Shown here: piece after piece, positions 197-37,029 of the stretch | Position numbering within the stretch: position 1 is the first letter of the stretch | Layout: the number at the start of each line of letters is the position of its first letter | IMG/VR virus record: IMGVR_UViG_3300032223_001420 | Location: 1-64,000 of that record | Length of the DNA: 64,000 nt | Strand: one strand, 5' to 3' | Source of the DNA: a virus | The notes under the pieces: generated by a model | The model's database searches: none | What the model was told of the DNA's origin: nothing | Seen by the model: the letters and a program-made list of their open reading frames with translations, nothing else | Program-made: the position numbers and the translations under genes

Positions 197-399
197 ATAT
201 CATTAATTGTGTTATTATGGAAAATTCCAGTGATCGCTGGATAGTGCTTCCCGAAATGACTTGTTGTCCGGATTATTCAAGTCTATAGGGTGTGACTGAC
301 GAAAAACCTATGACGATAGGAACAATAAGAGCAGTCCTATTAAATGCAAACCCTAGGCGGTGAATCCTAGGTATAACATGATAACACAATTAATGGTAT
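197..399 (+). ncRNA. Unassigned structured RNA between tRNA-Lys and tRNA-Gln
   Basis: The arms 197-219 and 377-399 form a 23-bp helix (21 Watson-Crick pairs and two G-U) that closes a 157-nt interior. Inside are nested local helices: TCCAG 226-230 with CTGGA 237-241; GACTTG 258-263 with CAAGTC 278-283; GACTG 294-298 with CAGTC 332-336, enclosing CCTA 307-310 with TAGG 317-320; and CCTAGG 352-357 with CCTAGG 366-371. No ORF explains it. The helix starts at the base after the tRNA-Lys CCA and ends 4 nt before tRNA-Gln, so tRNA processing would release it. T4 has two stable RNAs of unknown function (C and D) in its tRNA cluster; homology to those is not shown. Confidence 0.6.
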
Positions 400-3986: not shown

Positions 3987-5063
3987 ATGAGTAAATCTAT
4001 TGACATTAAAGCAATCTTATCAAACAACAAAGAACCCAAGTTTTCGGGTGAGTTGTCGCAAACGGAACTGACTCAAACGCTGAGTTGGTACGCCCAGAAT
4101 CGTGATAGCAAAGATGCAATAAAGTACGCTACCGAATACTTCAAAAAGAAACTTAAAATTGAGGCTCCTGACGGCTTGAAATCACAAGCCCCTACGTTCG
4201 GCTATATCTGTCGGATTGTGAGCCTAGGCGGCGTTCTGAACGATTCTAACGCTAAATGGTTCGATAAGACCATTGAGGAGCTAAAGAATGCAAAACGAGC
4301 CGCTACCAAGTCCGCCAAAGTTGCAAATGTTATATCAATTCAAGATCATATCAAAAGGAAATCGTCCGACTATATTGGAGAGTTGGAAGGTCAAATTGAC
4401 GAACTGATAACATCCGATTTTAAAACAGATGTTTCACCTTATGCAATGATGAACGCTTTGGAAGTAAAAGGCGCACATACAAAATTTATAATTGACCATT
4501 TTAAAACACGCCGTGCTGAATATGATGAAGTTTTGACAACCGATGATCCAGATGTCAAAGAAGCATATTCTAACTTTTCAAAAGTGCAACTAAAAAAATT
4601 AGTTGCGTATTGTGACCAAGTAATTCTTGATGGTATGAAACTTGCGGGTGATGCTGTTAAATCACGTAAGCCACGTAAACGAAAAGCTAAGTCGCCTGAG
4701 CAGTTGACTACTAAATTAAACTACGCAAAAGATTTTGCCGAATTAAAATTAGTATCGGTTGATCCGAAAACTATTGTTGGTGCAAATCAATTATGGGTGT
4801 ATAATACCAAAACACGAAAACTTGGTGTTTACGTTGCTCTTGATGCTGCTGGTCTAAGCGTTAAAGGCTCGACGATACAAAATTTTGCGGAAAGCAAATC
4901 AATCTGCAAAACGATTCGTGTACCGACAACAACAAGAATGAATGATGTGCTTAATGCAGGCAAAGTTGCATTACGTAATATATTAAATGATATTCGTGCT
5001 GCTGAAAATAAGTTGACAGGACGAATTAATGCTGATACAATTCTATTGAGAACAGTAAAATGA
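3987..5063 (+). CDS. Conserved hypothetical protein, 358 aa
   Basis: Function unknown. A helical N-terminal region (1-200) is followed by a basic patch (KSRKPRKRKAKS, about 228-239) and a beta-rich C-terminal part (LWVYNTKTRKLGVYVA). The basic linker suggests nucleic-acid contact. Its stop overlaps the start of RNase H by 4 nt (ATGA), so translation is probably coupled and a role near replication is plausible. Confidence 0.65.
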   Translation: MSKSIDIKAILSNNKEPKFSGELSQTELTQTLSWYAQNRDSKDAIKYATEYFKKKLKIEAPDGLKSQAPTFGYICRIVSLGGVLNDSNAKWFDKTIEELKNAKRAATKSAKVANVISIQDHIKRKSSDYIGELEGQIDELITSDFKTDVSPYAMMNALEVKGAHTKFIIDHFKTRRAEYDEVLTTDDPDVKEAYSNFSKVQLKKLVAYCDQVILDGMKLAGDAVKSRKPRKRKAKSPEQLTTKLNYAKDFAELKLVSVDPKTIVGANQLWVYNTKTRKLGVYVALDAAGLSVKGSTIQNFAESKSICKTIRVPTTTRMNDVLNAGKVALRNILNDIRAAENKLTGRINADTILLRTVK

Positions 5064-16810: not shown

Positions 16811-16932
16811 GTGATGATAAAAAAGAACCTAAAACACCACTCGATCATTTCGAACGCTGGTTTGATATAGCACTTCGATTTGGTTGGTGTTTGTTCATTT
16901 ATGTGGTTGTCACTGGCAATTACATAAGATAG
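16807..16932 (+). CDS. Tiny membrane protein, 41 aa
   Basis: A charged N-terminus (MSDDKKEPKTPLDHFER) is followed by one hydrophobic segment (about 24-39, RFGWCLFIYVVVTG). The ATGA overlap with the previous stop supports translation by coupling. Function unknown. The tmRNA begins directly downstream. Confidence 0.55.
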   Translation: MSDDKKEPKTPLDHFERWFDIALRFGWCLFIYVVVTGNYIR

Positions 16933-16933
16933 A

Positions 16934-17205
16934 ATTGTTGTAATCCCTTCAAAGCGAAGGCATGTTGGACGAGGGTTCGATTCCCTCCATCTCCACCAAA
17001 AGCATATTGTGTAGTATGTTTTTGATGGGGATGACCAGGTTTCGACAGCGTGAGATAGTGGAGACGGCAACACGGTAGGCGATGACCGTAAATCAAGCAA
17101 AACTACAAATGCAAATGACGCATTTTATGGTGAGGATCGCCTAGCAGCGTAACTCACTTGGGGTTTAGGGAGTGTCCTTATTAACCAATCACTCCCACCA
17201 AATTT
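16934..17205 (+). ncRNA. ssrA: Circularly permuted (two-piece) tmRNA
   Basis: tmRNA frees stalled ribosomes and tags the protein. The acceptor piece comes first: hairpin CCTTC/GAAGG (16946-16960), P2 strand CATGTTG (16961-16967), T arm GAGGG-TTCGATT-CCCTC (16971-16987), acceptor strand CATCTCC (16988-16994), then A and encoded CCA (16996-16998). A spacer hairpin of about 28 nt follows. The coding piece starts GGGGATG (17027-17033), which pairs with the acceptor strand (one G-U), then GGTTTCGAC, and CAGCGTG (17046-17052), which pairs with the P2 strand. The tag frame 17111-17152 reads ANDAFYGEDRLAA-stop. Outer boundaries are inferred. Two-piece tmRNAs are known in alphaproteobacteria, some cyanobacteria and some betaproteobacteria. 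Confidence 0.87.
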
Positions 17206-17213
17206 TATACATT

Positions 17214-17774
17214 ATGAAAATCTATAAATCAAATTACCGTAATCATTGGATTTCTCCTTACACTATTTTGGAGAAAGTTTTCTTTTGGCGTGAGATTGAT
17301 TATAATGAACCGATTATAGAGAAGTGGTCTAATCGTCTAAATCCAATCTGTGTAGCATGGCATGATTTTCTTGACTTTGTGCATCCACGAATCAGTTATG
17401 TGAAGATTGATCGGTATGATACATGGTCAATGGATGACACATTAGCAGATATCATTCTACCTATGTTAAAGCAGTTGAAGGAAACAAAACACGGTTCACC
17501 ATTCGTAGAAATGGAAGATGTGCCGGAACACCTTCGTGGTACAACTACCGAAGATTGGGAACCTCAATTTACCTTTGATTTTTATGAAGAAGATAAAGTA
17601 AGAGAAGGTATAAATGATGTTCATGCTCGATGGGATTGGGTAATGAATGAAATGATTTATGCATTTGAAAGGAAAGCAAACGATACTGATTGGTCAGCAA
17701 CTTGGGAAGAAACTGAACGTATGCAGAATGGATTCCGCTTGTTTGGCAAGTATTACCAAGGTCTCTGGGATTAA
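17214..17774 (+). CDS. Conserved T4-like phage protein, 186 aa
   Basis: The start 'MKIYKSNYRNHWISPYTILE' is typical of a protein of unknown function widespread in marine T4-like phages. It is acidic and rich in Trp, Tyr and Asp. The ATG at 17214 begins the conserved end; the in-frame extension from 17172 would read the tmRNA 3' region. A one-piece soluble domain is likely. Confidence 0.65.
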   Translation: MKIYKSNYRNHWISPYTILEKVFFWREIDYNEPIIEKWSNRLNPICVAWHDFLDFVHPRISYVKIDRYDTWSMDDTLADIILPMLKQLKETKHGSPFVEMEDVPEHLRGTTTEDWEPQFTFDFYEEDKVREGINDVHARWDWVMNEMIYAFERKANDTDWSATWEETERMQNGFRLFGKYYQGLWD

Positions 17775-34968: not shown

Positions 34969-37029
34969 ATGACAGAACGTCTAAGAGTAACCGAACTTGA
35001 TTTTGATACAATCAAGCAGAATTTAAAAACATATTTACAAGCACAAAACAAGTTTACCGACTATGATTTCGATGGTTCTGGTCTGTCTATTTTGCTTGAT
35101 ATTCTGGCATACAATACTCACTATAATGCGTATTACCTGAATATGGTTGCAAACGAATCATTTTTAGATACTGCTCTTTTACGTGATTCGGTTATTTCTC
35201 ATGCTAAAGTTTTGGGCTACGTTCCATATTCGACTAAAGCGCCGATTGCTAATATTAACTTTACTGTACAAACCACTTCAAATTCAGCAGCAACAATTAC
35301 TGTCCCTAAAGGATTTCGTTTTTTATCAAATGAGATTGATGGTGTAAGTTATGGTTTTGTCACACTACAAGAGAATAAAGTTACCAAAGCAAACACCGAC
35401 TTTGTTTTTGAAAACCTAGAATTGTATGAGGGACAGTTAGTAACATATTCATATACGTATGATACGACATCCAATCCCAAACAAATATTTACAATTCCTG
35501 ATGAAAACGTTGACACAACAACGATTACGGTAGTCGTTCAGCCTTCTACATCTTGTACCGCTTCTGAAGTATATACATTCGCTCCAGATGCATCGGAAAC
35601 GAATACAAACTCTTCTGTGTTTTATCTACAAGAAAATAAGAGCAAAAAATACGACATTTATTTTGGTAACGATGTTATCGGTAAAAGTTTAACTAATGGT
35701 TCGATTGTTTCAATTTCATACTTGATTACAAATGGAAGTGCTGCAAATAAAGCAGCTAATTTTGTAGCCGCAGGTGGGGGATTAACTGATTCGTTAGGTA
35801 ATAATCAAACAAACTTTATAATCGATTTGGTCAACGAAGCATCTGGTGGTGCTGAACGAGAGTCGGTCGATGAAATTAAATTTTCTGCTCCTTTACAATT
35901 TACCACGCAGAATCGATTAGTGACAATCAAAGACTATGAGTCTTTCATTATTAAAAATTATCCTTCGGTAGATTCGGTATCGGTATGGGGTGGTGAAGAT
36001 GAAGCTCCTCCTGTTTTTGGAACAGTATTTCTTTCTCTAAAACCTCGTCAAAACTATTATCTGTCAAACGTTGAAAAGCAAAGAATTATCGATGAGATTA
36101 TAAAACCAAAAGCAGTTGTTGCTGTTCAAACGATCATACGTGATCCAGAATATTTGTATTTGTTAATTTCACCAAACGTAACGTATGATCCCAAGAAAAC
36201 AATTTTAACGCCAGAACAATTGAAGACATCAATTAGAACGGCTGTTGTAAACTATAAAAATACTTACTTGGATAAGTTTAATTCGAGATTTATTCTGTCT
36301 AAACTTCAACAAGATATTGCTTCAGTTGATTTGAACTCAATCATTGGTTCAAAAGTGGTGGTTCGTCTGCAAAAAAGATTTGAGCCAACACTAGGTATTG
36401 GTCAATCATATACTCTCTATTTTAATGCTGCGTTATATCGTGGTACGATTTCTGATAAATTGACATCTACATATTTTAAAACATATGATAGTTTGGGTAT
36501 TGAAAGAGAAGTTCAGTTTGAAGAAATTCCACAATCATACTCAGGTATTTCATCTATTTCGATTATCAATCCTGGTTCAGGATATACTTCTGCACCGAAT
36601 GTAACTATTTCTGGTGACGGAACTGGAGCGACTGCTGTGGCTACCGTGGTCAATGGAGTAATCTCAAACATAACTGTTGTTAATAGAGGCATCGATTATA
36701 CACGTGCAGTTATTACTATTGATGGTGGTAACGGTTATGGTGCATCAGCCGCAGCCGAAGTTGATGCTAAGATCGGTACAATACGAACTGTATATTATGA
36801 TACTCTATCACAAAAACAAGTTGTTGATGAATCCGCTGGTACAATCAATTATGATACCGGTGAAGTTGTGATTAACAATATTCTCATTAACTCAGTCACT
36901 TCGGCCGATGGTTATATTAGACTTTCAATTGAGGCTGATAAAGGTATAATAGATACAGTAAAAAATACAATTATAACTATTGATGAACAAGACCCAATTT
37001 CGATTAGCACAACACTAGAAACTGTATAA
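34969..37029 (+). CDS. 6: gp6-like baseplate wedge protein
   Basis: 686 residues (T4 gp6: 660). The N-terminus 'LDILAYNTHYNAYYLNMVANESFLDTALLRDSV' region (about 42-74) and 'LGYVPYSTKAP' are hallmarks of gp6/gpJ-type wedge proteins. A glycine-rich beta module at about 525-600 (NPGSGYTSAPNVTISGDGTG) interrupts the C-terminal part and is shared with three other baseplate proteins here. It abuts the gp7-like gene. Confidence 0.92.
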   Translation: MTERLRVTELDFDTIKQNLKTYLQAQNKFTDYDFDGSGLSILLDILAYNTHYNAYYLNMVANESFLDTALLRDSVISHAKVLGYVPYSTKAPIANINFTVQTTSNSAATITVPKGFRFLSNEIDGVSYGFVTLQENKVTKANTDFVFENLELYEGQLVTYSYTYDTTSNPKQIFTIPDENVDTTTITVVVQPSTSCTASEVYTFAPDASETNTNSSVFYLQENKSKKYDIYFGNDVIGKSLTNGSIVSISYLITNGSAANKAANFVAAGGGLTDSLGNNQTNFIIDLVNEASGGAERESVDEIKFSAPLQFTTQNRLVTIKDYESFIIKNYPSVDSVSVWGGEDEAPPVFGTVFLSLKPRQNYYLSNVEKQRIIDEIIKPKAVVAVQTIIRDPEYLYLLISPNVTYDPKKTILTPEQLKTSIRTAVVNYKNTYLDKFNSRFILSKLQQDIASVDLNSIIGSKVVVRLQKRFEPTLGIGQSYTLYFNAALYRGTISDKLTSTYFKTYDSLGIEREVQFEEIPQSYSGISSISIINPGSGYTSAPNVTISGDGTGATAVATVVNGVISNITVVNRGIDYTRAVITIDGGNGYGASAAAEVDAKIGTIRTVYYDTLSQKQVVDESAGTINYDTGEVVINNILINSVTSADGYIRLSIEADKGIIDTVKNTIITIDEQDPISISTTLETV

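Follow-up and report, generated by a model that had tools for sequence, protein, structure and literature searches.

The locus and its RNA element

Does the stretch that separates the tRNA-Lys and tRNA-Gln genes at the start of an uncultured phage contig serve only as spacer, or does it hold an RNA of its own? The contig, IMGVR_UViG_3300032223_001420, is an incomplete virus record of 86,490 bases, of which bases 1-64000 were analysed (hereafter the window). T4-type baseplate proteins are encoded in the window, and the nearest cultured relatives of its baseplate wedge protein (34969-37029), about 39% identical, are Pelagibacter phage HTVC008M and Methylophilales phage Melnitz. The tRNA cluster is already under way where the record begins, with a partial tRNA-Glu (1-67; called a tRNA by Rfam, its identity being read from the sequence). 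This is followed by tRNA-Lys(UUU) (121-196) and tRNA-Gln(UUG) (404-479), both on the plus strand, and by tRNA-Trp (519-592), tRNA-Ser (599-685) and tRNA-Gly (2108-2182), as identified with ARAGORN and Rfam. The gap between tRNA-Gln and tRNA-Trp (480-518) contains an imperfect tandem TTTAAGTTTACA repeat, which overlaps a weak promoter-like match (488-517) and also precedes tRNA-Trp in L003 and L004. Elsewhere in the window, a phage-encoded permuted tmRNA (16889-17243; Rfam beta_tmRNA, 154.9 bits; tmRNA_permuted, 154 bits), to which ARAGORN assigns the tag ANDAFYGEDRLAA, hints at a host or source among the betaproteobacteria.

The element upstream of tRNA-Gln (197-399, plus strand) had been described in the first-pass annotation as a structured RNA running from the first base after the tRNA-Lys CCA to 4 nt short of tRNA-Gln, a placement that is exact by the tRNA ends given by ARAGORN. 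The 23-bp closing helix claimed for it can be read from the sequence as a mismatch-free pairing of 197-219 with 377-399 (21 Watson-Crick and two G-U pairs), and is also found as an inverted repeat. The minimum free energy of the element is -63.4 kcal/mol, compared to -40.9 +/- 4.0 kcal/mol for dinucleotide shuffles (z -5.67; 0 of 200 shuffles as good), and the longest stop-free runs, 30 codons in the forward and 38 in the reverse direction, leave it without coding potential, as had been stated. It was also said to resemble no group I intron, 6S RNA or riboswitch consensus; consistent with this, no Rfam 15 family matches the element at gathering thresholds in a cmscan search of the whole window, while a search of 190-410 up to an E-value of 10 returns only two chance-level matches on the opposite strand (E 6.2 and 7.7).

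A new RNA family with a covarying fold

The gene at 3987-5063 was used to gather 33 related viral loci. A homologue of the element is found directly behind tRNA-Glu in L030 (39% identical in this gene), and sequence patterns of the shared part were then run on IMG/VR to fetch further copies. A profile search confirms 27 full copies and three copies cut off by contig ends, and a later sequence-only pattern taken from the 3' half alone yielded seven more members. The family comprises 34 full copies, in the window and in 33 other uncultured viral contigs, with pairwise identities of 45-100% (mean 63%); as its members were collected by short sequence patterns, this number is a lower bound.

A covariance model (R1), built from 25 sequences, contains a 23-bp closing helix (P1), a 6-bp P2, a P3 with an outer helix of 4 bp and an inner one of 6 bp, P4, P5 and a 6-bp P6, and matches the window at 196-400 with 173 bits. 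In alignments of the 34 sequences, which are fitted to the structure and carry no phylogenetic correction, 90.5% of the cells of the 56-pair consensus are paired, double-sided changes occur in 45 of the 56 pairs, and the covariation score is 0.585; shuffles reach 0.205, and registers in which the partner strand has been slid score no higher than 0.111. The seven members held out of the model are likewise 90.5% paired and score 0.715. RNAalifold, to which no structure was supplied, recovers P1, P2, inner P3 and P6 with 32 covarying pairs. A scan for extra covarying pairs lengthened P3 by 2 bp and otherwise gave only one pair of column pairs, which is confounded with the split between subtypes A and B. 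The strong covariation among 34 full copies means that the element is not a product of chance: 197-399 is a structured non-coding RNA inside a tRNA cluster, and it belongs, with its P1-P6 consensus, to a new structured RNA family outside Rfam. This part of the reading of the first-pass annotation is thereby upheld, both by the covariation found in relatives and by the absence of a match to a known Rfam family.

No homologue of the element turned up when 50,697 phage records were searched with BLASTN, and a one-pattern search across 84,980 species genomes of bacteria and archaea gave chance matches only, so that the family is, as far as the present evidence goes, one of uncultured tailed phages. 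R1 has no match in the Melnitz phage genome. The single weak match of a relative, in Microcystis phage MaAM05, lies between the ferredoxin and pgi genes with no tRNA annotated nearby, and was rejected.

Secondary structure

The closing helix P1 (5' arm 197-219, 3' arm 377-399) covaries on both sides in 19 of its 23 pairs, and its 3' arm ends in AATGGTAT, the complement of ATACCATT, which in relatives is a tRNA-derived end. The 5' arm is followed by an unpaired GAAAAU (J1/2, 220-225), invariant or almost so in the family, and by P2 (226-241), a 6-bp hairpin with a GAUC (GNUC) loop, paired in 100% of cells and with two covarying pairs. P3 (250-290) consists of an outer helix (CCC, 250-252, with GGG, 288-290), 82% paired and shifted in register in subtype A, the one represented in the window, and of an inner helix (GACTTG, 258-263, with CAAGTC, 278-283), which is 91.8% paired and covaries in six of six pairs. 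P4, within 294-336, takes in subtype A the form GACTG (294-298) with CAGTC (332-336). It is the weakest helix of the pooled model (60% of cells paired) and is misfolded in the single-sequence minimum free energy structure, but is set right by the comparison of relatives, compensatory forms being read from the sequences of L042 (GAUUG/CAAUC) and L067 (GGUUG/CAACC). The P5 hairpin (307-320; CCTAT/ATAGG with a GACG loop) is 79.5% paired and all six of its pairs covary, as do the six of the P6 hairpin (352-371; CCTAGG/CCTAGG), which is 99.4% paired and carries a conserved CGGUGAAU loop, nearly invariant across the family as CGGUNAA. Between these hairpins lies an unpaired conserved AAUAAG (324-329), the AUAA of which (columns 135-138) is invariant. 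The interior helices, of which at least five had been claimed, are all present as P2, P3, P4, P5 and P6.

One base reaches at least 95% in 37 of the 92 unpaired columns, compared to 16 of the 112 paired columns, and the conserved unpaired blocks read GAA.AU, AGUG, AUAA, AAA..CAAAC, CGGUNAA and AUAA. To judge by these columns, the conservation of the junctions is greater than a mere spacer would need. Two additional pairings were considered and rejected: one of the 3' end of 16S rRNA with GGUGA(A)UCC in the P6 loop fits subtype A and is broken by GGUUAAGG in several subtype-B members, while a pseudoknot of CGUU in J4/6 with the GACG loop of P5 fits only part of subtype B.

Position in tRNA arrays and pairing with the tRNA tail

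Within 1.5 kb of the first 27 members, 271 tRNAs lie on the strand of the element and none on the opposite strand, and the seven later members are likewise found in the sense orientation among tRNA genes; a sense-strand position in a tRNA array is thus characteristic of the family. The commonest site is directly behind tRNA-Glu(UUC), others being behind tRNA-Lys, tRNA-Asn, tRNA-Ile and other RNA elements. In 16 of the 19 members situated directly behind a tRNA, all four bases of the tRNA NCCA pair with a UGGN at the 3' end of the element (L030 is included despite a bulge that a simple register search overlooked), and two more pair three of the four. The pairing takes the forms ACCA/UGGU and GCCA/UGGC, the GCCA being found behind tRNA-Asn (L074/L077) and, separately, behind tRNA-Glu (L229/L231). 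The window copy is the exception, with two of four bases paired and with a ATATCATT arm of its own after the tRNA-Lys CCA. The pairing is a common feature of the family, though neither universal nor defining, and since the window copy leaves the upstream CCA unpaired, masking of the NCCA is not required for retention of the element. The window copy may have come from a tRNA whose end had supplied its 5' arm, and its own ATATCATT arm is what would be expected from such a move.

Identity to the window copy is 93% for the copy of L037, 92% for that of L043 and 91% for that of L053. The baseplate protein of the L043 phage is 49% and that of the L053 phage 44% identical to its counterpart in the window, and another protein 31-36%. 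The phages nearest to the window in protein are L005 (72%), L017 (68%) and L004 (68%), and R1 has no match across their records, which may be incomplete. L005 has another stem-closed RNA, of 108 nt (ACCATATTAAAACACATT...AGTGTGTTTTAATATGGT), at this Lys-Gln junction, and it too pairs with the tRNA ACCA. Copies that are 91-92% identical in phages whose baseplate proteins share 44-49%, together with the absence from the closest relatives, point to horizontal spread, and the element appears from these comparisons to move between only distantly related viruses.

Other stem-closed RNAs in phage tRNA arrays

Among 228 distinct inter-tRNA gaps (49 loci), 78 elements with a closing stem of 15-26 bp were found, compared to 11.7 expected from dinucleotide shuffles. 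This count, which requires a stem of at least 15 bp and includes members of the window family, replaces a first one of 97 versus 43 obtained with mononucleotide shuffles and looser stems. Elements that start at a tRNA end number 48, and 30 of these take in the three or four last tRNA bases. One stem, ATATTGAARCACAYT...ARTGTGYTTCAATAT, is common to many elements with different interiors. The second inter-tRNA class so formed has a conserved stem of 16-20 bp (ATATTGAARCACAYT...) that encloses unrelated interiors, about 35-130 nt long, and is found, among others, at L006:646-720, L010:853-943, L016:398-473, L042:7628-7713, L059:3262-3388, L181:6338-6463, L146:1054-1122 and L069:3879-3949. Several of its elements take up the whole gap: they start with the A of the upstream CCA and stop at the base that adjoins the next tRNA.

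At L017:220-341, a stem of the window type (TTAATTGTGTTAT/ATAACACAATTAA) surrounds an interior of another type, 94% identical over 90 nt to L007:792-915, a combination which indicates that stems and cores are exchangeable. Another stem-closed RNA of about 120 nt, with the core GTAAGCCATGG...AACGGTAA...GCATAGCAAATAGT, occurs within at least three different stems (L006:880-1003, L007:792-915, L016:632-755, L026:204-328 and L027:2362-2480); its L006 copy has no Rfam match, and it is a candidate for a further RNA family. Inside stems of 16-18 bp, L043:6804-6899 and L017:762-854 hold tRNA-like bodies with a T-arm and no normal acceptor stem. An RNA-like segment ending in GTGGAAAGCGTGGCCTAAGCA (L043:8900-9215 and L012:209-400) directly precedes a family member in L043 and another element in L012.

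One tentative explanation is that tRNA arrays carry exchangeable cassettes, in which stems that clamp the NCCA surround varied cores, recombine and move between distant phages, the clamp controlling or protecting tRNA 3' ends and the core being released as a trans-acting RNA. If this modular reading holds, the clamp might, for example, guard against nucleases that attack tRNA tails, and the window family would provide one of the cores. The family itself belongs to a wider and apparently undescribed habit of phage tRNA arrays.

Proposed role and alternative explanations

The reading we favour, with a probability of roughly 0.55, is that the element is a stable tRNA-array RNA cassette, co-transcribed with the tRNAs and excised at its closing helix, the conserved core of which acts in trans. 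The element would be transcribed as part of the tRNA precursor, where P1 would form a duplex of a length suited to RNase III and would also, in most relatives, pair with the NCCA of the upstream tRNA through its UGGN, stack on the acceptor stem and cover the immature CCA end. A cut in P1, most likely by the RNase III of the host, would free the tRNA and release an RNA of about 150-200 nt, the five-branched core of which, with its invariant junctions, could then act in trans. P1 would thus be a module for excision and protection, and the conserved core the functional part. RNase III is proposed as the nuclease on account of the length of P1 (23 bp; 15-26 bp in similar elements), stems of 15-26 bp being of a size that suits this enzyme. 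That the unpaired blocks are conserved speaks for a core that acts in trans, and the restriction of the element to the neighbourhood of tRNA genes makes it most likely that its role is connected with translation or the tRNA pool, where the target of the core would presumably be sought.

The main rival is a cis-acting device for tRNA 3'-end maturation, in which only P1 is selected, holding the NCCA and directing cleavage, while the interior is a scaffold or cap. That NCCA pairs with UGGN in so many of the members that directly follow a tRNA, and that the discriminator base covaries, would be explained in this way, as would the many unrelated interiors within similar stems of the same arrays and the one interior that has three stems. 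Such contacts have counterparts elsewhere: a UGGN strand of T-box antiterminators pairs with the tRNA 3' NCCA, and a GGU of RNase P RNA contacts the CCA, whereas the pairing in the window family is in cis, within the same precursor, and runs on into a helix of about 20 bp. A cis-acting device does not, however, account for an interior in which unpaired blocks stay invariant and five helices covary in members down to 45% identical. Moreover, nearly half of the members, such as that of the window, lie behind another RNA element or are without pairing to a tRNA CCA, and most tRNAs of these arrays have no such element behind them. On balance this rival seems doubtful, and readings of the element as a DNA transposon, a ribozyme or a degenerate tRNA are each less likely. 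A mobile DNA element of the MITE or Correia type, with P1 as a terminal inverted repeat served by a transposase in trans and with an incidental fold, is unlikely, despite the terminal inverted repeats, the patchy distribution among close relatives, the near-identical copies in distant phages and the other elements that share one conserved terminal repeat around differing interiors. The Correia repeat enclosed elements of Neisseria, short and non-coding with terminal inverted repeats, can be bound or cleaved by RNase III (PMC2649163), but they are dispersed mobile DNA repeats, whereas the window family has a single confident copy in each of six carrier records that were searched throughout, is confined to tRNA arrays, always in the tRNA orientation, and has a covarying RNA fold. 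The sequence of P1 varies while its complementarity is kept, unlike that of a repeat read by a transposase, the interior helices covary as well, and the TA beside the ends is missing where the tRNA ends in GCCA.

That a self-cleaving or otherwise catalytic RNA excises itself from the tRNA precursor could be supposed from the invariant multi-helix junction and the placement exactly at tRNA ends, yet it is quite improbable: no Rfam ribozyme family is found above chance (the best matches of any kind have E-values of about 6 and 8), and the hammerhead-like CUGACGA of subtype A is missing from subtype B and hence is not a conserved core. Comparison with T4 bears on the remaining possibility, a degenerate tRNA or a relative of T4 RNA C or RNA D, to which the first-pass annotation had likened the element. 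These RNAs (species 1 and 2; rnaC, 139 nt; rnaD, 119 nt) are likewise small and non-coding and abut tRNAs at the edge of the tRNA cluster, so that the likeness holds for layout, but it does not extend to homology, as R1 finds no match to rnaC, rnaD or anything else in the T4 tRNA region and the whole of NC_000866. RNA C is tRNA-like, ends in a tRNA T-arm and is without the long terminal helix of the window family, and RNA D, unlike the window element, folds no better than shuffles. The shared kind of location, the T-arm of RNA C and the acceptor-less tRNA bodies with a T-arm in L043 and L017 would suit an origin from a tRNA. Neither Rfam nor ARAGORN, however, calls a tRNA in the element, its CGGUNAA loop in P6 is not a T-loop and several of its junctions are 5-16 nt long, which makes this origin very improbable indeed. 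Other highly structured RNAs of phages and prophages, GOLLD and ROOL, are also often found near tRNA islands (PMC12286853). GOLLD is often longer than 800 nt and both form RNA nanocages, whereas the window family is about 200 nt long and of another architecture; neither matches the window at gathering thresholds or 190-410 at E<=10, and neither is among the matches listed for 11 related loci.

Implications for phage tRNA arrays

The element adds a well-supported structured RNA family, found neither in Rfam nor described in the open-licence literature searched, and indicates that what separates tRNA genes in phages is not always just spacer but can be a folded and horizontally exchanged RNA. 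Selection for an RNA arm that pairs with the 3' NCCA of the neighbouring tRNA would provide a specific idea of how phage tRNA precursors may be processed or guarded, and the long-standing puzzle of T4 RNAs C and D gains a comparative setting.
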